From a virus: a DNA stretch of 50,425 nucleotides. The notes below the pieces were generated by a model. That model saw only the letters and a program-made list of their open reading frames with translations, made no database searches and was not told the DNA's origin. Below, piece by piece: positions 3,886-50,425 of this stretch. Location: IMG/VR virus record IMGVR_UViG_3300015372_000004, positions 1 through 50,425 of that record; one strand, 5' to 3'. The translations under genes were made by a program, and so were the position numbers. The stretch's first letter is position 1. Every line of letters begins with the position of its first letter.

Positions 3886-4398
3886 ATGACCAAGCATACC
3901 AACGCAACCATCGACACGAAGCTCCACGATGACGGCGCAGTCAGCCACAAAATCACCTTCGCGGACGGCAGCACCGACCTCGTAGTGATCGCGGCGAATA
4001 GCCCCCTCCTGCAGCAATTCGTTGCGCATGGTTCGCGTGCCAAGTTACAGGCGGCGATCAACTCCGCTTCCGACAAGCAAGGGTGTTCCGCGCCCGAGAA
4101 GGTAGCTTCCCTCGGCGCCGCATTCGACCTTGGCCGATGGACCCTGAACGAAGGCACCGCCAAGCCCAAGGGAAGCGCCCTGACGCGCGCTCTCGCCGCC
4201 CTCAAGGGCTGCCCGGTGGACGAGGCCGAAGCGTACGTGAAGGGGCTTTCCAAGGCTGCGCAAGCCAAGCTGCGGGGCAACCCGGCAGTTGCCGCCAAGA
4301 TTCTCGAACTGGAAGCGGACGCCCGCACCGAAGCGACCGGCGACCTGCTCGATGGCTTCCTCTCCGATGGCGTAGACGTACAGGAGGCCGCCGCATAA
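3886..4398 (+). CDS. Hypothetical protein, 170 aa
   Basis: ATG follows AAGGA. Residues 1-60 look beta-rich with FADGSTDLVV; residues 85-160 are helical and Ala/Lys-rich, with a segment ALTRALAALKGCPVDEAEAY. The arrangement resembles a phage protein of unknown function recalled from other genomes, without confirmation. It is directly upstream of the 0.7-kb structured RNA array, which is probably on the same transcript. Confidence 0.8.
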   Translation: MTKHTNATIDTKLHDDGAVSHKITFADGSTDLVVIAANSPLLQQFVAHGSRAKLQAAINSASDKQGCSAPEKVASLGAAFDLGRWTLNEGTAKPKGSALTRALAALKGCPVDEAEAYVKGLSKAAQAKLRGNPAVAAKILELEADARTEATGDLLDGFLSDGVDVQEAAA

Positions 4399-4402
4399 GT
4401 TA

Positions 4403-4578
4403 TTCCTCTGCGCCGGGCTGCCACACTCGGCGTAGGAGATACGGGGGAAGGTCCGCATTACCTCTCCAAGCACACGCTGGCTCTGTGTGCCCCCAAAGAA
4501 CCAGCACGAATTCCTCGCGGGAAAGAGGTACAGCGTCTGCACTAGGTGCAGGGGTACCGCAGGAGGTGGAAGCCCTCC
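4403..4578 (+). ncRNA. Structured RNA array, 5' modules
   Basis: No credible gene. Successive foldable units on the + strand are: a hairpin with CGCCG (4411-4415) and CGGCG (4428-4432) extended by TCC/GGA; a three-way junction closed by GGGG (4443-4446)/CCCC (4491-4494) holding AGGT-N7-ACCT and GCACAC-N9-GTGTGC; a hairpin GGTAC...CTGCAC-TAG-GTGCAG...GTACC (4527-4558); and GGAGG-N7-CCTCC (4562-4578). The two tRNA-like units follow directly. Confidence 0.6.
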
Positions 4579-4585
4579 AACCGTG

Positions 4586-4655
4586 GGACAGGTAGCTCAG
4601 TCGGTAGAGTGCTGGGTCGCGCCCGGATACGCAGGTTCGAGTCCTGCCCTGTCCC
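4586..4655 (+). tRNA. tRNA-like sequence 1 (shortened anticodon arm)
   Basis: Acceptor GGACAGG (4586-4592) pairs with CCTGTCC (4648-4654), extended by G4585-C4655. TA, D stem GCTC/GAGT with loop AGTCGGTA, and T arm GCAGG-TTCGAGT-CCTGC (4631-4647) are canonical. The stretch between D stem and T stem is only 20 bases instead of 22-23. It folds as CTGG-GTCGCGC-CCGG (4-bp stem; CGC after the T33-like base, nominally alanine) or as a 5-bp stem with a 5-base loop. No encoded CCA. Could be a degenerate tRNA or a tRNA mimic. Confidence 0.6.
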
Positions 4656-4662
4656 CTCCATT

Positions 4663-4738
4663 GGATGGAGTAGCTCAGTGGGTTTAGAGCGATGTGGTGC
4701 ACCACATAGAGACGCAGGTTCGATTCCTGCCTCCATCC
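4663..4738 (+). tRNA. tRNA-like sequence 2 (palindromic anticodon arm)
   Basis: Acceptor GATGGAG (4664-4670)/CTCCATC (4731-4737) with an eighth pair G4663-C4738, D stem GCTC/GAGC with loop AGTGGGTTTA, and T arm GCAGG-TTCGATT-CCTGC (4714-4730). The anticodon arm is the perfect palindrome ATGTGGTGCACCACAT (4692-4707), which closes the loop to six bases or fewer, so no normal seven-base loop forms. If the loop is GTGCAC, GCA (cysteine) occupies the anticodon. No encoded CCA. Same D and T arm design as the previous unit. Confidence 0.6.
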
Positions 4739-4740
4739 CT

Positions 4741-5072
4741 CCATAAGAGAAGGGCTTCCCCCGAGGCTCCTCCCTTATGGGCGAGAGTACGCAATACCCC
4801 TGTGCCAAGGCTTTGTCCGAGGGCTGCGGCGCAACACCTCCCGGCATACTCTCGCCCGCCCGAAAAGGTGAGACAGGCGAAGCGGTTGACCACCGTCATT
4901 AGCTTTCCAAAAAAGTCCGGGCAGGTTGGTAGCCTGCTTTTGGGCGCCTCTAGTCAAGGTGGATTAACTGTCTCACCCCCTGTTTGGGGCACTCTCAACC
5001 GTAAGGTTTGACTGCTACATGTTGACGCGTGAAGCAGGCGAGAGTGCCCCTCCCCCTCGCCCCAGTGGGCGA
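4741..5072 (+). ncRNA. Structured RNA array, 3' modules
   Basis: Units in order: hairpin CCATAAG...CTTATGG (4741-4780) with inner GGGCTTC-CCCC-GAGGCTC; an element closed by 11 perfect pairs GGGCGAGAGTA (4779-4789)/TACTCTCGCCC (4847-4857); an element closed by 10 pairs GGTGAGACAG (4867-4876)/CTGTCTCACC (4968-4977), with inner CGGT-TGACC-ACCG and CCAAAA...GCAGG-TTGGTAG-CCTGC-TTTTGG, where the inner arm resembles the tRNA-like T arms; an element closed by 11 pairs GGGGCACTCTC (4986-4996)/GAGAGTGCCCC (5040-5050) with two inner hairpins; and TCGCCC-CAGT-GGGCGA (5057-5072). No reading frame here looks like a gene. Confidence 0.65.
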
Positions 5073-5097
5073 ACCCTAGTTAAGTGGAGAAAGTAAA

Positions 5098-5496
5098 GTG
5101 GAAGAGAACACCGATTATCGCCTCGCCCCAGAGGTGAAAGCTGCGTGGCTGGAAGCACTGCGCTCAGGCAAGTACGTCCAAGGCGCCGGGCGCTTGAGCA
5201 AGGGCGGCAAGTATTGCTGCCTTGGAGTGCTATGCGATGTGATGGGCGCAAGAGAGCAACTTCCCTCCCCACCAGCAGTAGGCACCCACCCCTCCTACTT
5301 CGCCTACAAGGGCACCGTGTCGTGCGATGTTCTCCCTCATGCCCTCGCTAAAGAGCTTGGCATCACTGTGGGAGGCACGCTCAACAGGCCAATTGAGAAT
5401 GGCAGTCTTCCCCCCTTCAAATCCCTCTGGGAACTGAACGACTGCGCCGGGTACAACTTCGAGCAGATCGCCCAAGTCATCGAGGAGCAATTCTGA
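5098..5496 (+). CDS. YCCLGVLC-motif protein A, 132 aa
   Basis: Starts at GTG with GGAG upstream, 26 bases after the RNA array. Contains AWLEALRSGKYVQGAGRL, then GGKYCCLGVLCDV (about residues 40-52) and a C-terminal ELND.AGYNFEQIAQVIEE. The gene that follows encodes a paralogue with the same three blocks. The CCLGVLC block is familiar from phage hypothetical proteins; the paired cysteines might bind metal, but the function is unknown. Confidence 0.85.
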   Translation: MEENTDYRLAPEVKAAWLEALRSGKYVQGAGRLSKGGKYCCLGVLCDVMGAREQLPSPPAVGTHPSYFAYKGTVSCDVLPHALAKELGITVGGTLNRPIENGSLPPFKSLWELNDCAGYNFEQIAQVIEEQF

Positions 5497-5873
5497 TGGA
5501 CGCCAAGATCAAAGCCGATTGGTTAGCTGCCCTGCGCTCAGGGAAGTATGCGCAGACCACTGGGGCGCTCCGCGAGGAGACCATCCTTGGAGACCACACT
5601 TATTGCTGCCTCGGCGTTCTATGCGAGGTTGTAGGAGTAACGTGGACCCCGGAAGGGTGTGCTGCATATAAGGAGGACGTTTGCTCCGGCCTCTTGCCTC
5701 ACTCCGTAGCTTTGAAGGCGGGTCTCGATGCGTCCGTAGAAGACTACGAGGACTGCCAACAGATAGACCCCGAGGTATGGATAGGCGAGGAGAAAGCCAC
5801 TCTCTCCGAACTGAACGACTCTGGCGACTACACCTTTGCGCAGATCGCAGACATTATTGAGGACCAGCTATGA
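5496..5873 (+). CDS. YCCLGVLC-motif protein B, 125 aa
   Basis: Tandem paralogue of the preceding gene: DWLAALRSGKYAQTTGAL, then HTYCCLGVLCEVVGV, then ELNDSGDYTFAQIADIIEDQL. The ATG overlaps the upstream TGA by one base. The middle parts of the two copies are unrelated, so the duplication is old or the middle segments evolve quickly. Function unknown. Confidence 0.85.
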   Translation: MDAKIKADWLAALRSGKYAQTTGALREETILGDHTYCCLGVLCEVVGVTWTPEGCAAYKEDVCSGLLPHSVALKAGLDASVEDYEDCQQIDPEVWIGEEKATLSELNDSGDYTFAQIADIIEDQL

Positions 5874-6331
5874 ACAAGGAACGACTCCAGCAGGTTGTGC
5901 GCGTGCTGCGCACCCTGCCGCCCGAGGCGAAGAACGCATTCGACCTGCCTGCAGGGTGGGTTGCCGTGAACGGCGAGGATTGGGATGTCTGCAACAATGG
6001 CCACCTCTTCGATACGCGGGAGATCGCCTATAACTTAGCCGACCCTCTCCTCATCCCCCACAATTGCGGAGCTACTGCCTGCGCATGTGGCTACGCTGGC
6101 CTCGACCTGTGGTTCAACGAGCAAGGCTTCCGTACCACGCAAGGCGGGACCGTGCGGTACGGGGAGAAGCAATCGTGGGGTGCGGTGGAAGATTTCTTCG
6201 ACCTCACCGTGGAAGAATCTCACTACCTCTTCGCTGGGGATTACGACGAGTATGTGTCGCCCGACATGGTAGCCACCCGCATCGAACTCTTCATCAAACG
6301 CGGCGGAGTGCCGCCGAGGGACGACGAATGA
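5870..6331 (+). CDS. Hypothetical Cys-containing protein, 153 aa
   Basis: Starts in an ATGA overlap. The central block CGATACACGYAGLDLWF holds three cysteines in nine residues. Upstream is a block LPAGWVAVNGEDWDVCNNGH. It resembles other phage proteins encoded next to YCCLGVLC-type genes. Possible metal site; function unknown. Confidence 0.8.
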   Translation: MNKERLQQVVRVLRTLPPEAKNAFDLPAGWVAVNGEDWDVCNNGHLFDTREIAYNLADPLLIPHNCGATACACGYAGLDLWFNEQGFRTTQGGTVRYGEKQSWGAVEDFFDLTVEESHYLFAGDYDEYVSPDMVATRIELFIKRGGVPPRDDE

Positions 6332-10932: not shown

Positions 10933-11122
10933 TTACCCCGCCACCACTCGCTACTGCGTGGACTGCCGCCACGTTCAAGTCGTGACCAGCGTTACAGCCA
11001 CCGGCGAGCCGACCTACAACTGCCTCGGTATTGTCTCCGAGATTACTGGCAAGGCGCTCAAGGTTGTCTGCCACGAAGCCCGCATCACATGCAAAGGGAA
11101 GCTATGGGAACCCAAACCTTGA
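10925..11122 (+). CDS. Small putative zinc-binding protein, 65 aa
   Basis: Five cysteines spaced as CVDC, then C.., C.., C.. (residues about 10-55) suggest a zinc ribbon-like fold. Overlaps the preceding gene by eight bases. An alternative ATG at 10916 exists. Function unknown. Confidence 0.65.
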   Translation: MSDYPATTRYCVDCRHVQVVTSVTATGEPTYNCLGIVSEITGKALKVVCHEARITCKGKLWEPKP

Positions 11123-11286
11123 GCTACTTCATGGTGCCTGCGCAGACAACGGCGCAGGCAGACGGCCTCACTATCACCAACCGCCATCAGCACCCCATGC
11201 TGGTGACGGTCGAACTCCTGATCCCCGACACCGTTGAGGACGACAAGGTGACAGACCTCCCCATCATCATTGAGGACGACGAGTAA
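11104..11286 (+). CDS. Hypothetical protein, 60 aa
   Basis: ATG at 11104 follows AAAGGGAAG; an upstream in-frame ATG at 11089 lacks a comparable ribosome site. Beta-rich product ending in a strongly acidic tail (IIIEDDE), a feature of SSB-like or DNA-mimic proteins but too generic to assign. Confidence 0.6.
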   Translation: MGTQTLSYFMVPAQTTAQADGLTITNRHQHPMLVTVELLIPDTVEDDKVTDLPIIIEDDE

Positions 11287-15855: not shown

Positions 15856-16052
15856 AGGCCGGGGACAAGGTTATCTGCATAGCAGTCTATGCTGCGAAAG
15901 GGCGAGGCGTGACTGGTGTAGTGAAGAAGGTACAGCGGCGGGCCAAGTCCTTCTTTGGGGATCGCCTTCTTATCGTGCGCGATGACGGCATTCCCGGTTC
16001 TGGCCCGAATGGGGAATGGGTGAGCAACGCTGATTGTTGGAGAGTGCTATGA
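15852..16052 (+). CDS. Small SH3/KOW-like protein, 66 aa
   Basis: MKAGDKVICIAVY followed by KGRGVTGVVKKVQ and LLIVRDDG has the strand pattern of a KOW or SH3-like barrel (GDKV...G..G.V). Basic in the middle. Immediately upstream of and overlapping the polymerase gene at ATGA. The function is inferred only from fold-like pattern. Confidence 0.65.
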   Translation: MKAGDKVICIAVYAAKGRGVTGVVKKVQRRAKSFFGDRLLIVRDDGIPGSGPNGEWVSNADCWRVL

Positions 16053-17692
16053 CCATGACCTCCGGCCCTGTCGGCGCACGCTTCATGATCGTGGGCGAGG
16101 CTCCGGGCGAACAGGAAATCCAGAAGGGCATTCCCTTCGTCGGCTTTAGCGGCCAACTCTTGGACTCTTCCCTCGCTTCCGCAGGCATCCCACGTTCCGA
16201 TTGCCGCGTCCTCAACGTGTGCAACGAGCGTCCGCCCGGCAACGACATGTCCCTGTGGATGCCGACCACGAAGAAAGCCCAAGCCGAGCTTCTCGCCTCC
16301 GGGAAAGGGGTAGAGCTTAATGGCCGTATCGTCCACCGCTACGTCAAGGAAGGCTATGACCTCCTCCAATCCGAACTTGCCGCCGGACCCGCCCCTGATG
16401 TTATCTTGGCGGTGGGCAATACTGCTCTATGGGCTCTCTGCTCCCGCACTGGAATCTCTAACTGGCGAGGTTCTCATCTCCAACATCCTTGCGGCGCTAC
16501 TGTTGTTCCTACCCTTCATCCAGCAGCGGTTCTACGTGCGTGGGACCAGAAGCCCGCCTTCCTCACAGACATCAAACGCGCTGGACGAATTCTACGCGAA
16601 GGTAATCATCCCCCAAGCTGGCACTTCACCGTCAGGCCCACCTACGCACAGGTAGAACTCTGCCTGCGCAACCTAATCGAGATGGCAGATCATGGAACTC
16701 TACTTATCTCTGCGGACATCGAAACGCGCGCACAACATACCACATGTGTCGGTTTGGCTTGGACGACTACCGATGCCATTTGTATCCCGTTCACATCTGT
16801 GGAACATCCGTCCGGCTATTGGGCGGAAGATCAAGAGGTTCAAATTATTGGGCTATTACTTCGTCTACTTACGCATGATAGGGTCGAAGTCGTCGGCCAG
16901 AACTTTATATATGATGCACAGTATTTCTTCCGGCACTGGCACTTCATCCCCAACCTAAAGCATGACACCATGCTCGCCCAACATGTATGTTTCCCACGTT
17001 TACCAAAGTCCTTGGACTACATTGCATCGCTCTACTGCAACCACTACGTCTACTGGAAGGACGATGGTAAGGATTGGCGCGGGGACAATGATGAAGATCG
17101 TTACTGGCGATACAACTGTGAGGATTGTGTGCGAACACTGGAGTGTCACCACGCTCTCCAGCGGGTGGTTGAGCGTATGGGACTAACCGGCCCGTACGAA
17201 TTCCAGATGAGCATGTGGGGGCCATGTCTGCGCATGATGATTCGTGGCGTGGACATAAGCGATACCTTCTATCAACAAACCAAGTCGGAGCTATCCTCTC
17301 ATGCCCGGAACCGTCAGGCGCAGGTTGACTACATGGTTGGACATCCACTTAACGTGCGTAGCACCCCGCAGATGCAACGCTTTTTCTACGAGGAGATGGG
17401 GCTGCCCCGGCAGTTTACGCGAGGCAAGACAAAGGCAGTTACTTGCAACGATGAAGCCCTCGCAAAGATCGCAAAGAAAGAGCCAATTGTCCGCCCTATC
17501 TGCATGGCGATACAAGAGATACGTTCATGCTCGACTCTTCTGGCGAATGCTCTTAAACCAGCAGTGGGCTACGATGGGAAGATGCATTCTTCCTTCAACC
17601 CAGCGGGAACTACTACATTTCGCCTCTCGTCCTCGACGGACGCCTTTGGTAGCGGAATGAACCTGCAGAACATCACCTCCGGAGATGAATAA
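16049..17692 (+). CDS. UDG-like domain fused to DnaQ-like exonuclease and PolA N-terminal part, 547 aa
   Basis: Start at 16049 is set by GGAG and an ATGA overlap. Residues 1-180 are a uracil-DNA glycosylase-like domain: GEAPGEQEIQKGIPFVGFSG (16-35) and LHPAAVLR (156-163). Residues 215-375 are a 3'-5' exonuclease: SADIETR (D223, E225), VGQNFIYD (D289), YNCED (D359). Residues 385-547 are the PolA thumb start, ending RLSSS...NLQNI, the segment normally just before motif A. The chain then stops; motifs A, B and C are on the separate gene at 18524. SPO1 polymerase also carries a UDG-like N-terminal domain. Confidence 0.9.
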   Translation: MTMTSGPVGARFMIVGEAPGEQEIQKGIPFVGFSGQLLDSSLASAGIPRSDCRVLNVCNERPPGNDMSLWMPTTKKAQAELLASGKGVELNGRIVHRYVKEGYDLLQSELAAGPAPDVILAVGNTALWALCSRTGISNWRGSHLQHPCGATVVPTLHPAAVLRAWDQKPAFLTDIKRAGRILREGNHPPSWHFTVRPTYAQVELCLRNLIEMADHGTLLISADIETRAQHTTCVGLAWTTTDAICIPFTSVEHPSGYWAEDQEVQIIGLLLRLLTHDRVEVVGQNFIYDAQYFFRHWHFIPNLKHDTMLAQHVCFPRLPKSLDYIASLYCNHYVYWKDDGKDWRGDNDEDRYWRYNCEDCVRTLECHHALQRVVERMGLTGPYEFQMSMWGPCLRMMIRGVDISDTFYQQTKSELSSHARNRQAQVDYMVGHPLNVRSTPQMQRFFYEEMGLPRQFTRGKTKAVTCNDEALAKIAKKEPIVRPICMAIQEIRSCSTLLANALKPAVGYDGKMHSSFNPAGTTTFRLSSSTDAFGSGMNLQNITSGDE

Positions 17693-17694
17693 AA

Positions 17695-18075
17695 ATGAGC
17701 ACCATCACTGAACTTTCAATCGCAGCCTACGCAAATTCCTCTTCCCACGGATTCTGGGAAGACTTCAACAAGACCTATGCAATCCTCAAGCAAGCGGACC
17801 CGACGGAAACTCTCTCCGACAAGTACGTCCTCGACGTGAAGCTGTCGAAGATCGACCTCATGCATTCGGAACTGGGGGAGATGACCGAGGGTGTGCGCAA
17901 GCCCACGCAGGACCAGCACTGCCCCACCTTCTCCTCCGAGGAGATCGAACTGGCCGACTGCATCATCCGCGCATTCGACTACGCCGAAGCCTTCGGCCTG
18001 CGCCTCGAAGATGCCATCCACGCCAAGATGGCCTACAACCAGTCCCGCCCCTACAAGCATGGCAAGGGGGCATGA
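17695..18075 (+). CDS. MazG-like nucleotide pyrophosphohydrolase, 126 aa
   Basis: KIDLMHSELGEMTEGVRK (about residues 48-65) and EEIELADCIIRAFDYAEAFG supply the two acidic clusters (ExxE and ExxD) of all-alpha MazG-type NTP pyrophosphatases; the C-terminal MAYNQSRPYKHGK is also typical. Likely hydrolyses a (d)NTP or an alarmone-like nucleotide. It starts two bases after the polymerase N-terminal chain and lies between the two polymerase halves. UDG and MazG domains together suggest handling of non-canonical nucleotides. Confidence 0.85.
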   Translation: MSTITELSIAAYANSSSHGFWEDFNKTYAILKQADPTETLSDKYVLDVKLSKIDLMHSELGEMTEGVRKPTQDQHCPTFSSEEIELADCIIRAFDYAEAFGLRLEDAIHAKMAYNQSRPYKHGKGA

Positions 18076-18527
18076 TGACCAGACTGTGGACACCAGATGA
18101 GCTAACCCGCCTGCGGGAAATCTGGGGGGACGAAGACCGCCGCAGGATGCCCATTGCCGACCTCCTCGTCCTCTTCCCCAAGCGCAGCTACCGTTCGATC
18201 TGCTCGAAGGCTTGGGCTATGGGCCTTGGTAGGCCCAAGCTATCGCCGGGCGAGGGCAATAGCATCGTGCTGGGGCTGCTGGCGCGGAAGAAAATGACGA
18301 CTAAGGAACTTATGGAGGCCACAGGCTATTCCATCGACGTTCTTCGTGGCATCCTACAGGCGCTACGGGACTCAGGAAGGGTCCACATTGCGTCGCGGGT
18401 GTCTCCCCCTAGGGGAGGGTGGCCCCTGAACGTTTGGGCTGCTGCAGGCGCGCCTGACGCGCCTGAGAACCTTCTCGACCAACTCCGTCCCCACGCAGGC
18501 AATCCCTTCGCCCAACTCTTCCTATGA
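18072..18527 (+). CDS. Putative DNA-binding protein (SANT/HTH-like), 151 aa
   Basis: N terminus LWTPDELTRLREIW followed by MPIADLLVLFPKRSYRSICS and KAWAMGLGRPKLS resembles the SANT/Myb-like helices of phage DNA-binding proteins. A second helical region TTKELMEATGYSIDVLRGIL looks like a winged-helix HTH. No endonuclease motif seen. ATGA overlaps with the MazG-like gene and with the polymerase C-terminal gene. Confidence 0.7.
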   Translation: MMTRLWTPDELTRLREIWGDEDRRRMPIADLLVLFPKRSYRSICSKAWAMGLGRPKLSPGEGNSIVLGLLARKKMTTKELMEATGYSIDVLRGILQALRDSGRVHIASRVSPPRGGWPLNVWAAAGAPDAPENLLDQLRPHAGNPFAQLFL

Positions 18528-19237
18528 TCCCCAACCTGCGCAAGATGATCGTACCCCCTCCCGGCAGGGGGTTTTTTGACCTCGACCTTGACTCAGCCGA
18601 CCTACGCATCGTTACGTGGGAATCCAACTGCCGATGGATGAAGGACTGCTTCTCCGCAGGCAGGAAGCCCTACGTTGAACTTGCCCGCGAGTACTACCAT
18701 GACCCGTCTATCACGAAGCACCACCCGAGTTACCCCACCTTCAAGAGGTTCTGCCACGGAACGAATTACCTTGGTCAACCCGCAACGATGGCAGGTCAAT
18801 GTGGCCTTCTGGTGCATGAAGCTGACCGCCTCCAGAGTTGGTACTTCGGCGTCTGCCCTGAGATCAAGACATGGCAGGAGAACTTCGTTGCCAAGTTTCT
18901 TGCCACTAGTACTGTCCGGAACGCCTTCGGCTACCAATGTAAGTTTTTCGACAGGCTGGAGGGCAACATCATTAACGAAGCCGTGGCATGGATACCTCAA
19001 TCCACTGTCGCGCTTGTCATTAACAACGGATGGAGGAACATTGATCGTAACCTTCCAGACGTGTGGATTCATCTACAGGTGCATGATTCTCTCGTCGGGT
19101 CGTACGAGATTGAGAAGGAAGCAGAGATGCTGGAGGCCGTTAAGCGGGAGACGACAATCGTAGTCCCATACCCGGACCCACTGGTAATTCCGGTGGGGCT
19201 AAAAACAAGTCACGTAAGTTGGGGTGATTGCAAATGA
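18524..19237 (+). CDS. Family A DNA polymerase, palm-fingers chain, 237 aa
   Basis: This is the missing C-terminal half of the protein at 16049. Motif A: DLDSADLRI near residue 22 (catalytic Asp kept; Asp replaces the usual Glu). Motif B/O helix: KRFCHGTNYLG near residue 70, with Lys and Tyr kept and His at the place of E. coli Pol I Phe762. Motif C: QVHDSLVG near 188. Together the chains give about 784 aa, a normal PolA size. It starts by ATGA overlap, so the split is a real gene boundary rather than an assembly frameshift. The chains presumably associate non-covalently. Confidence 0.9.
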   Translation: MIPNLRKMIVPPPGRGFFDLDLDSADLRIVTWESNCRWMKDCFSAGRKPYVELAREYYHDPSITKHHPSYPTFKRFCHGTNYLGQPATMAGQCGLLVHEADRLQSWYFGVCPEIKTWQENFVAKFLATSTVRNAFGYQCKFFDRLEGNIINEAVAWIPQSTVALVINNGWRNIDRNLPDVWIHLQVHDSLVGSYEIEKEAEMLEAVKRETTIVVPYPDPLVIPVGLKTSHVSWGDCK

Positions 19238-21735: not shown

Positions 21736-21994
21736 GGTTGACTCCAAGGGCTACGGCAGAGTTCAATTCGTCCTGCCGCTGGACGACCTCGTTACGCATG
21801 GAGTCCACTGAGGCGCTGACGTTGCGGGTCATGCGCGCATTCTCCGTAAGCATCACTGGCAGCCAAGAGATTGCGCAATCCCAATGATCGATGGATTGGC
21901 CGGTCTGCGGATGGACACCAGTGACGTGCGTATAAAACTTGCAGCCATGCGTAATACAAGGCTTCTTCAAGAGAGGGCAAAGCGGTTCACTCAT
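21671..21994 (-). CDS. Cys-rich protein, 107 aa
   Basis: CPLLKKPCITHGCKFYTHV near the N terminus plus HWDCAISWLP near residue 40 give four cysteines that could bind a metal or Fe-S cluster. The C-terminal half is helical. The gene overlaps the protease start by 65 bases in another frame. A similar protein is familiar from other phages, with no known function. Confidence 0.75.
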   Translation of the reverse strand: MSEPLCPLLKKPCITHGCKFYTHVTGVHPQTGQSIDHWDCAISWLPVMLTENARMTRNVSASVDSMRNEVVQRQDELNSAVALGVNREKAPSVTYVPDPPSIGMRDD

Positions 21995-22494
21995 GACTTG
22001 ACTCCGATAACGTGGTCAGTGTACTTGAGGACAGGAGTTGTGAAGGTGGGAGTGAAGGAACCTCCCGAGCCGGAGTTGTTGGAGGAGAGGCCGGCGCTGT
22101 TGGTGCTAGTGGAGCCGACTTGGTTGGTGGCAACGTCACGCGTGAAAGCTGCGTGGGTATTATCCACGTTGGTCAGGAAGTTCACAGGGCCAGGAAAGCC
22201 GTGCGAGTGGGTGGGATCGTTCACGCCGTGAGAGTGAACTGGAAGATTGGCGACGGAGAGTGTGATGGCGTTGCAGTTAAACACGCCGCCATTGTTCCAC
22301 CCACTCCAGTTTGCGGAACCTCCGGTGGAGGGGCTGGAATGGTTCACGCGAAGGTCCGTATCGCTATAGGCTGCGCCCACCTCTTGCGCCCATCCCGGAG
22401 GAGGCGCAGCTTGATGGAAGATCGTCCGCGTGCCTGCGGGCGCAATCAACTGGCCCACGACGAAGAACCCATAGGGCATCAGTCCGCTGCTCAT
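21991..22494 (-). CDS. Tail-collar-type protein, copy 3, 167 aa
   Basis: IAPAGTRTIFHQAAPPPGWAQ followed by a Ser/Gly/Asn-rich stretch, LSVANLPVHSHGVNDPTHSH and a final GGSFTPTFTTPVLKYTDHVI. This is the layout of phage tail-collar/short-fibre tips. Two further copies lie directly upstream. Probably virion surface, host contact; overlaps neighbouring genes by four bases. Confidence 0.8.
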   Translation of the reverse strand: MSSGLMPYGFFVVGQLIAPAGTRTIFHQAAPPPGWAQEVGAAYSDTDLRVNHSSPSTGGSANWSGWNNGGVFNCNAITLSVANLPVHSHGVNDPTHSHGFPGPVNFLTNVDNTHAAFTRDVATNQVGSTSTNSAGLSSNNSGSGGSFTPTFTTPVLKYTDHVIGVKS

Positions 22495-23024
22495 GATTGC
22501 CTCACGCAGATGATTAGGTCTGTGTACTTGACCGATGGGGCGGGGATGGTGGGCGTGAAGCTGGAACCGGAGCCTGCGTTGCCTACGCCTACGTTTGCGC
22601 CTGCTGCATTAACGGTGCTGCTGCCTGATTGCTGTCCAGAGTATGCAACAGTGTTAATACCGTCTTGCCACTGGTTGCCGTTGCCTTTCAACAGGAAGTT
22701 GGCGCCATCGCTAGGGCCGTGCGCATGGGTTGGGTCATTCACCGTGTGGGTGTGCGAGGGCATGTTCGCCACGGAGAGCGTGACCGCATTCGCATTGCGG
22801 GTTCCGCCGAACTGCCAGCCACTCCATACTGCGCTGCCACCAGTAGTGCCACCAGATGCTGCCCTCAACGTGCTAGTGCAATCGGTGAGCGTGGAGGCCG
22901 TATCGGTGGTCCAACCTAGTGGGGCAGCCGCCTGATTGAACGGGATGCGCGTACCCTTCGGGGCGATAAGCTCTCCCGGCAGGAACGAACTCGGTGGGAT
23001 GAAGATACCAGTACCTTGGATCAT
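22491..23024 (-). CDS. Tail-collar-type protein, copy 2, 177 aa
   Basis: Same blocks as the genes on either side: IAPKGTRIPFNQAAAPLGWT, LSVANMPSHTHTVNDPTHAH, and SSFTPTIPAPSVKYTDLIIC. The middle region differs from the other copies, which suggests diversification of a receptor-contact surface. Four-base overlaps on both sides indicate coupled translation. Confidence 0.8.
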   Translation of the reverse strand: MIQGTGIFIPPSSFLPGELIAPKGTRIPFNQAAAPLGWTTDTASTLTDCTSTLRAASGGTTGGSAVWSGWQFGGTRNANAVTLSVANMPSHTHTVNDPTHAHGPSDGANFLLKGNGNQWQDGINTVAYSGQQSGSSTVNAAGANVGVGNAGSGSSFTPTIPAPSVKYTDLIICVRQS

Positions 23025-23512
23025 GATTTCTGCGCCACGATGAAAGCCGCGTACTTGAGAACCGGGGCAGTGATGTTAGGAGTGAAGGACGTGCCGGAGC
23101 CAGTGTTCTGCAACGACACACCTGTGGAGGAAGCGGCAGTATTTGTTGCAAAGACAGCAGAGGAGTTCGTGGAGTTGAGGGCGTTGGATGCTGCCCCACT
23201 GGTTAGGGAAGTCACAGGCAAGCCGTGCGCATGGTCCGACGACATGCCGTGATTATGCGCAGGCATCTGCGTAGTGGTGAGAGTCACTACCGATAGGTTG
23301 AACGTCCCTCCATTCAACAGGACAGAATGGTTGGTCGTGCCTGCAGTGGCGCCTCCTGTCCCAGTCACCACCCTCATCGCATGGTCTGTGAGGGTGGCGT
23401 CCGTGACCCAGCCAATAGGCGGGGATGCCTGATGAAAGGTCATGCGTGTGCCGGGAGGCGCGATGAGGTTCGCCCCCAGCAGTGACACACTCCCGGTAAC
23501 GAAGCCAGTCAT
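23021..23512 (-). CDS. Tail-collar-type protein, copy 1, 163 aa
   Basis: The frame is open from 23611, but the ATG at 23512-23510 overlaps the previous stop by one base and precedes MTGFVTGSVSLLGANLIAPP, the same N-terminal design as the other copies (IAPPGTRMTFHQASPPIGW). Contains TTTQMPAHNHGMSSDHAHG and SGTSFTPNITAPVLKYAAFI. Probable short-fibre or collar protein. Confidence 0.8.
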   Translation of the reverse strand: MTGFVTGSVSLLGANLIAPPGTRMTFHQASPPIGWVTDATLTDHAMRVVTGTGGATAGTTNHSVLLNGGTFNLSVVTLTTTQMPAHNHGMSSDHAHGLPVTSLTSGAASNALNSTNSSAVFATNTAASSTGVSLQNTGSGTSFTPNITAPVLKYAAFIVAQKS

Positions 23513-23847
23513 TATTGCGACTCCAATCCGCTGCAGGTAAGGGTGAGACCAGTGGCGCTTGCGGCGGTAGAGATGAAGTCTCCGGCCTCCATCACTTGTG
23601 TGCCAGTCCAATGAAGGGTCTGGTTCGCCGGGATGGCTACAGAGGAGAGAATTTGATTCCCAGTACCTGCAGTACCGCCACTAGGGACCAAGTTCATCGT
23701 GAAGTTGATCGAGCTACCCGTAGTGTTGGCTACGTCAAATGCCTTAATTGCATCCTGACGCGAAGCGGGGACAGTGTATTGAGTAGTCTGCGCAGTAGCG
23801 ACTGCCACTTGCACGAACTTCTTGTATTGAACGATAGTGAATGCCAT
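23512..23847 (-). CDS. Beta-rich virion-type protein, 111 aa
   Basis: Starts MAFTIVQYKKFVQVAVATAQ; contains AIPANQTLHWTGTQVMEAGD, a pattern I associate with small phage virion proteins placed beside fibres. Probably a small beta-sandwich; role unknown. Encoded between the holin and the collar genes. Confidence 0.7.
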   Translation of the reverse strand: MAFTIVQYKKFVQVAVATAQTTQYTVPASRQDAIKAFDVANTTGSSINFTMNLVPSGGTAGTGNQILSSVAIPANQTLHWTGTQVMEAGDFISTAASATGLTLTCSGLESQ

Positions 23848-41708: not shown

Positions 41709-42341
41709 TTAGGCGCCAGCGGTGCCACCGACCGACAGTTCGTGCGTATTGAAACGAACCATCAAGGGGGTATTGGCAGTGAAGTCCACGTTCGGACGAT
41801 ACGGCAGGCCGACGATCTTCAAGGGGAAGGTCGCAGTGGTTGCCACGGTGGCCGAGTCGAGGACAGTGCGCGACACCAAATCGCCGGCAACAGGAGTGCC
41901 TTGGATAAAGCGTGCATTGAGGTTGACAGACGAGGCCGAGAAGGCGCCCGAGTTGTCGGCCATGATCTCCATCACCAGACCAGGATCGTCTGCTACGAGG
42001 ACGTAGTAGTCGTGGGTCTTGGTTGCGGGAATGGTCTGGGTGTTGAGGTCCACGTTGGAACCTTGCACCGCGCCTGCGCCGGTGCCAATCGGAGCGACCA
42101 TGATGCCGACGACGATGCCGCGAGCATTGTAGGCTGCCGAGTTGGTGGCGTTGGCTTGACGAATCACGTCAGGGACACCGTTCGCATCCGCACCGGTAGC
42201 AGCGGAGCCAACAACATCACCGAGGAAATACGCCAGAGTATCGGTGGAAGGGATGTGGTAGAGGTTCGCCTTACCAGTGTAAGGAGAACCGTCACCGTTC
42301 TGCACAGGCGCAAAGCCATGCGGAGCGTTCGGGTTCGCCAT
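41709..42341 (-). CDS. Capsid decoration-type protein, 210 aa
   Basis: MANPNAPHGFAPVQNGDGSP at the N terminus is the hallmark start of a phage structural protein encoded next to the coat gene. The rest is beta-rich with DYYVLVADDPGLVMEI. Probably capsid-associated. Confidence 0.75.
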   Translation of the reverse strand: MANPNAPHGFAPVQNGDGSPYTGKANLYHIPSTDTLAYFLGDVVGSAATGADANGVPDVIRQANATNSAAYNARGIVVGIMVAPIGTGAGAVQGSNVDLNTQTIPATKTHDYYVLVADDPGLVMEIMADNSGAFSASSVNLNARFIQGTPVAGDLVSRTVLDSATVATTATFPLKIVGLPYRPNVDFTANTPLMVRFNTHELSVGGTAGA

Positions 42342-42353
42342 GATTGATCTCCG

Positions 42354-42893
42354 TTAGCGAGTTCGAGTCGTGTACTTGATCCCGTCTGTGGGCATGTAGG
42401 CGTTTTCTACATGTTCGACGGTGCCCGTCCGAATTGCGCGGTCGATGGCATCAGCCCGTTCTTGGTAGTAGGCATCGTTTTCCTGCTTCCAATCCAGAGG
42501 GATTTTCATCAGGTACGCTACCAGTTCTTGGCCGTTTTCCATGACGCCGACTCGGCGGCTTACTCGGTCCCCGAGGTCGGCGGTTGGTGCGCCTACGGAC
42601 GGGGCTGACTGGACTTCACTTAGGCTAACGAACTCATAACCGGAGTTCAAGGCGTCTTGGACACGCCCCGGATAATCATTGATCCAGTGGCAGTAGTAAC
42701 CTGCCTGATGGAGCTTGGTGCAGTCTACACCAAGTTTGGAGGAACCAAAAGCGGGACGGCGACGAGGCCGGCCCTCTACGCGGTCTGTGGTCGTGCGGAT
42801 GGCCGCTTGGACCTGCTCGCGGGAAGGGATTTCTCCTGCACTTTCTACTTGCTCACCGACTTGGACTGCGGATTCTTGAGGAAGTTTCGCCAT
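42354..42893 (-). CDS. Capsid-associated conserved protein, 179 aa
   Basis: Central block YYCHWINDYPGRVQDALNSG, then YEFVSLSEV, RVSRRVGVMENGQELVAYLM and DWKQENDAYY matches a family found between scaffold and coat genes in podoviruses; function undetermined. N-terminal 45 residues are Gln/Glu-rich. Confidence 0.75.
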   Translation of the reverse strand: MAKLPQESAVQVGEQVESAGEIPSREQVQAAIRTTTDRVEGRPRRRPAFGSSKLGVDCTKLHQAGYYCHWINDYPGRVQDALNSGYEFVSLSEVQSAPSVGAPTADLGDRVSRRVGVMENGQELVAYLMKIPLDWKQENDAYYQERADAIDRAIRTGTVEHVENAYMPTDGIKYTTRTR

Positions 42894-50100: not shown

Positions 50101-50313
50101 ATGCGAGTAACGGATAGGCTGGGCGCACTGACGCCCGAAGCAAGCGCGCTCATGCAGGCGATGGACTGCGCGATGGAGAATGCGCCCGACGCCGGGCTGG
50201 AAGACACTAGGCTCAGGGAAATGATGGCGCGAGTCGGGGCCGATCTGCTGGCCGAAGTGGCACCGGATGTGGGCGACTGGAAACCCACGAACGTAACCCT
50301 CAAGGGAGAGTGA
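50101..50313 (+). CDS. Hypothetical helical protein, 70 aa
   Basis: Frame open from 50068; the ATG at 50101 with AGGAG six bases upstream is the better start. Helical and acidic (LTPEASALMQAMDCAMENAP). Ends two bases before the first codon of the next gene at the circle junction. Confidence 0.65.
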   Translation: MRVTDRLGALTPEASALMQAMDCAMENAPDAGLEDTRLREMMARVGADLLAEVAPDVGDWKPTNVTLKGE

Positions 50314-50425
50314 AAATGCGCGCACTGGTGAATGTGGGGATGGACAAGGCGCATGGTGGGCACCTAGGCGCGCAAGACGTGCTCGATGCACTGACTGCGC
50401 ATGGGATGGAGGTGAGGTACTGGGC
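50303..50425. repeat. Terminal direct repeat, right copy
   Basis: Exact copy of 1-123 at the end of the window, marking closure of the circular genome map. Confidence 0.95.
50316..50425 (+). CDS. Partial copy of the first gene (14-328)
   Basis: Start and first 36 codons of the 104-aa early protein, cut by the window end. It is the same gene as at position 14 if the molecule is circular; not an independent duplicate. Confidence 0.9.
   Translation, partial: MRALVNVGMDKAHGGHLGAQDVLDALTAHGMEVRYW

Follow-up and report, generated by a model that had tools for sequence, protein, structure and literature searches.

A structured noncoding locus with two tRNA-like units and three stem-closed modules in the early region of a phage genome

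The gene-free stretch of about 0.7 kb at positions 4399-5097 of the analysed window (the whole 50,425-nucleotide record) appears to be a structured locus with tRNA mimics and is without a convincing gene, flanked on both sides by ORFs on the + strand. We read this stretch, with moderate confidence, as a tRNA-derived noncoding RNA locus, in which the tRNA-like units would serve as processing sites that free a structured RNA of about 310-350 nt. This reading builds on direct observations, namely the features of the sequence, the statistics of its folding, and a position specific to this lineage. The folding statistics, the tRNA models, and the abnormal anticodon arms of the units support the original prediction that the locus is structured, noncoding, and carries tRNA mimics. 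The features of the locus and its neighbours are as follows.

3886-4398, + strand: upstream neighbour, a 170-aa ORF with homologues in related phages, used as an ancestral position marker
4399-4584, + strand: noncoding 5' segment with a hairpin at 4407-4435 and a few weak hairpins, folding as a whole at chance level
4585-4655, + strand: tRNA-like unit 1, 8-bp acceptor stem with G-1:C73, normal D and T arms, 15-nt anticodon arm, no CCA
4663-4738, + strand: tRNA-like unit 2, G-1:C73, 16-nt palindromic anticodon arm, a partial duplicate of unit 1
4742-4779, + strand: long hairpin (CAUAAG/CUUAUG with inner GGGCUUC/GAGGCUC), z -2.9, 5 of 500 shuffles equally good
4779-4857, + strand: module M1, 11-bp closing stem, inner hairpin, single predicted fold, z -4.0
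4867-4977, + strand: module M2, predicted multibranch fold inside a 10-bp closing stem, z -3.4
4986-5050, + strand: module M3, 11-bp closing stem, three-way junction, single predicted fold, z -6.8
5057-5072, + strand: short hairpin UCGCCC-CAGU-GGGCGA, z -2.6
5098-5496, + strand: downstream neighbour, a 132-aa ORF with a GTG start, first of two adjacent paralogues

Genomic position of the locus

The record carries a 123-bp direct terminal repeat (1-123 and 50303-50425), because of which it very likely represents a complete, circularly assembled phage genome of about 50.3 kb. The terminase has relatives of approximately 40% identity in Alcaligenes phage QDWS535 and in a Manatee Spring phage, and the portal protein matches the SU10 portal family. 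The early region, with a PD-(D/E)XK nuclease, an AAA ATPase, and a DNA polymerase, shows 47-57% identity to phage MW202489.

In agreement with the prediction that no protein is encoded between the two coding blocks, the ORF list holds no convincing frame from 4398 to 5098. A coding region at 4399-5097 was rejected, as the stretch contains two tRNA folds and its ORFs have no sensible product. No convincing promoter or terminator was recognised around the array, a point that counts against our reading; the hairpin at 5057-5072 is not followed by a T run, and no terminator was detected at that site. Because no convincing promoter or terminator of its own is seen, the most economical reading is that the array is read through with the surrounding operon. 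The two paralogous ORFs downstream (5098-5873) share the pattern W-ALRSGKY ... YCCLGVLC, and distant homologues of the first occur in phages of Alteromonas and Synechococcus.

The same position was compared in relatives chosen via the AAA ATPase and the 170-aa gene. In eight early-region relatives, the homologue of the 170-aa gene is followed by about 150-250 noncoding bases and then by the next gene; the slot holds hairpins or terminators, often together with a sigma-70-type promoter. A tRNA scoring over the cut-off is absent from the records of 23 of the 24 early-region relatives. Since the relatives keep the upstream gene without the array, and mostly without a tRNA, the array is, as judged by this comparison, a lineage-specific insertion at an operon boundary. 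In the terminase relatives, tRNAs are present in 10 of 47 records and are mostly ordinary; a few degenerate or 6-nt-loop units are seen, as in the records L110 and L141. The tRNA-like unit of L110 (436-508) has a 6-nt anticodon loop, as does one of the units of L141 (583-658), a record in which an RtcB-like RNA ligase ORF was also recognised by eye (4847-6034).

Two further elements were seen in the slots of relatives. The motif TGACACCCCGGAAAGACGGGGG is conserved after the 170-aa gene in L120 (3480-3498) and L126 (1263-1281), followed in both by a long hairpin of differing sequence and then by a promoter-like site; this slot is possibly a conserved RNA element. The loop GAATTGAGCCTC is common to L131 (1723-1734), L138 (3171-3182), and L129 (5376-5387). 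In L131 and L138, it is the loop of a hairpin with differing stem sequence in the slot after the 170-aa gene, and behind the hairpin come a stretch resembling a terminator and a promoter-like TTGACA site.

Structures of the tRNA-like units

Both predicted tRNA-like folds were recovered by ARAGORN and by the Rfam tRNA model RF00005 (4586-4655 and 4664-4738), with + strand scores of 56.0 bits for unit 1 and 50.7 bits for unit 2 at a cut-off of 29. Each unit forms the cloverleaf of the model (7-bp acceptor stem, D arm, and T arm), with normal D and T arms; the standard anticodon arm, in which a 5-bp stem carries a 7-nt loop and the anticodon can be read, is lacking in both. The acceptor stems of both units are extended by an eighth pair, G-1:C73 (G4585/C4655 in unit 1 and G4663/C4738 in unit 2). 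This pair is a signature of tRNA-His in bacteria.

The anticodon arms should be noted, since they measure 15 nt in unit 1 and 16 nt in unit 2 against the usual 17. The arm of unit 1 is CUGGG-UCGCG-CCCGG, which ARAGORN folds into a 4-bp stem and a mismatch and calls Ala (cgc). That of unit 2 is the perfect palindrome AUGUGGUGCACCACAU, for which ARAGORN gives a 6-nt loop and names no amino acid. The anticodon loops of both units can close to 4-6 nt, and an encoded CCA is absent from both; in related phages, nearly all tRNAs have 7-nt anticodon loops and an encoded CCA. Because the anticodon arms are shortened and CCA is not encoded in either unit, decoding by either appears unlikely from their structure. 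The 3' parts of the units are 81% identical over 36 nt, indicating a tandem duplication after which the anticodon arms would have diverged.

The same features can be accommodated by separate tRNA mimics or decoys, possibly tRNA-His-like, that would be uncuttable or unusable and whose putative binding partner would be HisRS, an anticodon-nuclease defence, or a modifying enzyme. Both the hallmark G-1:C73 pairs and the ability of the anticodon loops to close to 4-6 nt agree with such a role; however, it leaves M1-M3 unexplained, and we consider it very doubtful.

Structures and folding statistics of the 3' modules

The three perfect closing stems lie exactly where they had been predicted, at 4779-4789/4847-4857 (11 bp), 4867-4876/4968-4977 (10 bp), and 4986-4996/5040-5050 (11 bp). 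A length of 10-11 bp is roughly that of a single A-form helical turn. In M1 (79 nt), the closed hairpin encloses an inner stem; M3 (65 nt) contains a hairpin with a GUAA tetraloop and a second hairpin of 5+5 bp. In both modules the centroid is identical to the minimum free energy fold, with ensemble distances below 1 (0.8 and 0.6). The multibranch fold predicted for M2 (111 nt) is less certain. Its hairpin GCAGG-UUGGUAG-CCUGC (4921-4937) has the same stem (5 bp) and loop length as the T arms of both units, a resemblance which hints that M2 may contain tRNA-derived material. By eye, M2 also shows a candidate pseudoknot. M1 and M3 have a GAGAGT/ACTCTC core in common in their stems, and a swap of partners is possible in principle.

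Compared with shuffled controls, 4399-5097 as a whole folds at z -3.3, and none of 20 shuffles was as low, as expected from the original prediction. The 3' part (4741-5090) reaches z -4.9 (0 of 200 shuffles), and none of 500 shuffles matched M1, M2, or M3 alone. For 350-nt windows taken every 1 kb, the genome background has a mean z of -0.34 (sd 1.31) with a minimum of -4.67 in one window. The cluster of three stems, defined as three non-overlapping perfect stems of at least 10 bp with spans of 40-130 within 300 bases, occurs once in the genome and in none of 400 dinucleotide-preserving genome shuffles, 15 of which reached two stems. Single stems this long are no rarity, with 6 found across the genome and a mean of 4.4 in the shuffles. 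Strong folding is also found elsewhere, in the 120-nt windows at 42259 (z -7.4) and 11059 (z -5.5), which counts against our reading; strong hairpins occur at other places in this genome because the phage DNA is G+C-rich. The former window (42259-42378) is near the start of a structural gene, and the latter extends over 11059-11178.

The 5' segment and the extent of the array

It had been claimed that nearly every base falls in a strong hairpin and that the array comprises about ten modules. Both statements hold for the tRNA-like pair and the 3' half and fail for the 5' part (4399-4585), which folds like shuffled sequence (z -0.9, with 38 of 200 shuffles equally good). The small hairpins of this part have z values of -1.2 to -2.9, and its long-range pairing with the 3' part does not exceed that of shuffles. 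Since the 5' folding and the 5'-3' pairing are ordinary, the array proper is limited to the tRNA-like pair and the 3' modules. A pseudoknot at 4469-4506 was rejected; its first loop would be almost of zero length, and the stretch folds like shuffled sequence (z -1.3).

These results bear on the idea of one large "ornate" RNA of the GOLLD/ROOL type, in which a 5' domain, a tRNA-bearing linker, and a stable 3' domain would act jointly, perhaps as a homo-oligomer or a cage. The length of about 690 nt and the phage setting suit this idea, the location of the tRNAs between the 5' part and the structured 3' part is reminiscent of the GOLLD linker (PMC12286853), and long-range pairings are possible at 4434-4450/4755-4771 and 4545-4556/4795-4806. 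However, neither the GOLLD nor the ROOL model matches, the 5' part shows no significant folding, and the 5'-3' pairing is at the level of shuffled sequence, making a joint RNA of this type improbable.

Searches for homologues and RNA families

Searches of phages and plasmids by blastn recovered no homologue of the array, viral contigs contained no exact match to its patterns, and covariance models built from the single sequences of M3 and M1 detected none in 49 related records. The nearest records to this genome were outside the searched set, so the absence of homologues is not a proof. A pattern search of genome contigs gave four matches with poor M3 scores, which is chance level (18 fixed bases should match about 7 times on the two strands of 257 billion bases), and single-protein scans with the neighbouring genes found no viral contig. 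The array thus far shows no sign of long-term conservation, which counts against our reading.

In a cmscan of the region against Rfam, the tRNA model RF00005 matched both units, and no family was found for M1-M3 even at E 5. The GOLLD model, which covers the conserved 3' domain, matched neither the region (E<=5) nor the whole record; the ROOL model gave no match in the region-wide cmscan or in a separate search. In the separate GOLLD and ROOL searches the control genomes gave no match either, and the region-wide cmscan is the better test. The YrlA / bacterial Y RNA model, whose cut-off is 69 bits, scored 18 (E 0.61) and matched the tRNA parts alone. Two types of DNA element were rejected: MITE or transposon ends, as the sequences of the three terminal repeats are different and target duplications were not seen, and integron attC sites, as the core-site consensus is absent by eye.

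The lack of conservation would suit a decaying tRNA island, in which degenerate phage tRNAs and passenger sequence have no present role and the stems remain from past recombination or duplication. The tRNA-derived appearance of the two units and of the T-arm-like hairpin in M2 points the same way, as do the degenerate tRNAs of the relatives L110, L141, and L015. Drift is, however, expected to affect stems and anticodon arms equally, whereas the acceptor, D, and T arms and the three closing stems are intact, and three consecutive perfect stems are beyond chance (0 of 400 shuffles). We therefore regard decay as unlikely.

Proposed processing and comparison with known RNAs

In the reading that we favour, a noncoding RNA locus with tRNA-like processing sites, transcription, processing, and function are proposed as follows. 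The locus would have been inserted between two early-region genes and would be transcribed together with them from the + strand. Units 1 and 2 would have lost their decoding design and kept the acceptor and T arms, which RNase P and the tRNA 3' nucleases recognise; because these arms are retained, the units are most likely processing punctuation. Cleavage there would free the downstream RNA of about 310-350 nt (about 4741-5090), whose three stem-closed modules may confer stability through protection from exonucleases. The downstream RNA would be the functional product, a structured RNA acting as a scaffold, decoy, or protein binder. The cutting into several stable RNAs and the decoy or protein-binding roles that were originally suggested are likewise hypothetical. 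It is possible, though somewhat doubtful, that the locus represents a new class of phage noncoding RNA, namely a tandem of three modules with 10-11-bp stems of about one helical turn each, freed by two non-decoding tRNA-His-like units and serving as a stable scaffold or decoy during infection.

Two small-scale analogies may be drawn. T4 species 1 and 2 are small stable RNAs without a known role in a phage tRNA cluster; their likeness to the array is one of analogy alone, as the array modules are longer-stemmed and in tandem, and an Rfam or sequence match is absent. The mascRNA-type modules of eukaryotic nuclear lncRNAs are tRNA-like, have a reduced anticodon arm, and direct cleavage by RNase P. 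The units of the present locus share the tRNA-like form with a reduced anticodon arm, and no homology is implied.

By analogy, GOLLD, ROOL, and the ICP1 RNA are closer documented precedents than the T4 species. Phages carry abundant large noncoding RNAs, often near tRNAs (PMC12286853, PMC7567579). GOLLD is phage-encoded and often longer than 800 nt, with a structured 3' part and sometimes tRNAs in a linker, and ROOL is a large RNA of phages and prophages near tRNA islands, with an example of 659 nt (PMC12286853). In ICP1, a noncoding RNA of about 800 nt from an ORF-less space of about 1 kb is the most abundant phage transcript (PMC7567579). The locus resembles GOLLD (RF02032) in being phage-encoded with tRNAs near or within it and a highly structured 3' part, but it is shorter, its 5' part is not significantly folded, and it lacks a covariance-model match. 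It resembles ROOL (RF03087) in phage setting, tRNA vicinity, and overall length, but again without a model match. With the ICP1 RNA it shares the ORF-less space in a phage genome; in contrast, ICP1 has no tRNAs, and no sequence link to the array was found in the phage collection. The locus is thus similar in kind to GOLLD and ROOL and a member of neither by model match.

Large structured phage RNAs such as these three can be abundant, and their role is not known. A small, modular, independent example whose tRNA-like units apparently do not decode would help to separate the common traits of such RNAs from family-specific ones, and the locus would show that phage tRNA genes can be reused as RNA-processing or decoy parts.

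Other observations in the genome

The family A DNA polymerase (16034-19237) is apparently split into a 552-aa N-terminal ORF ending at 17692, about 830 bp with an ORF at 18072-18527, and a C-terminal ORF at 18524-19237. No Rfam intron matched in this region, and the polymerase of the relative MW202489 is one continuous gene. On the - strand, three tandem paralogous ORFs (21991-23611) share LIAPxGTR and a common C-terminal pattern and look tail-collar-like by eye.
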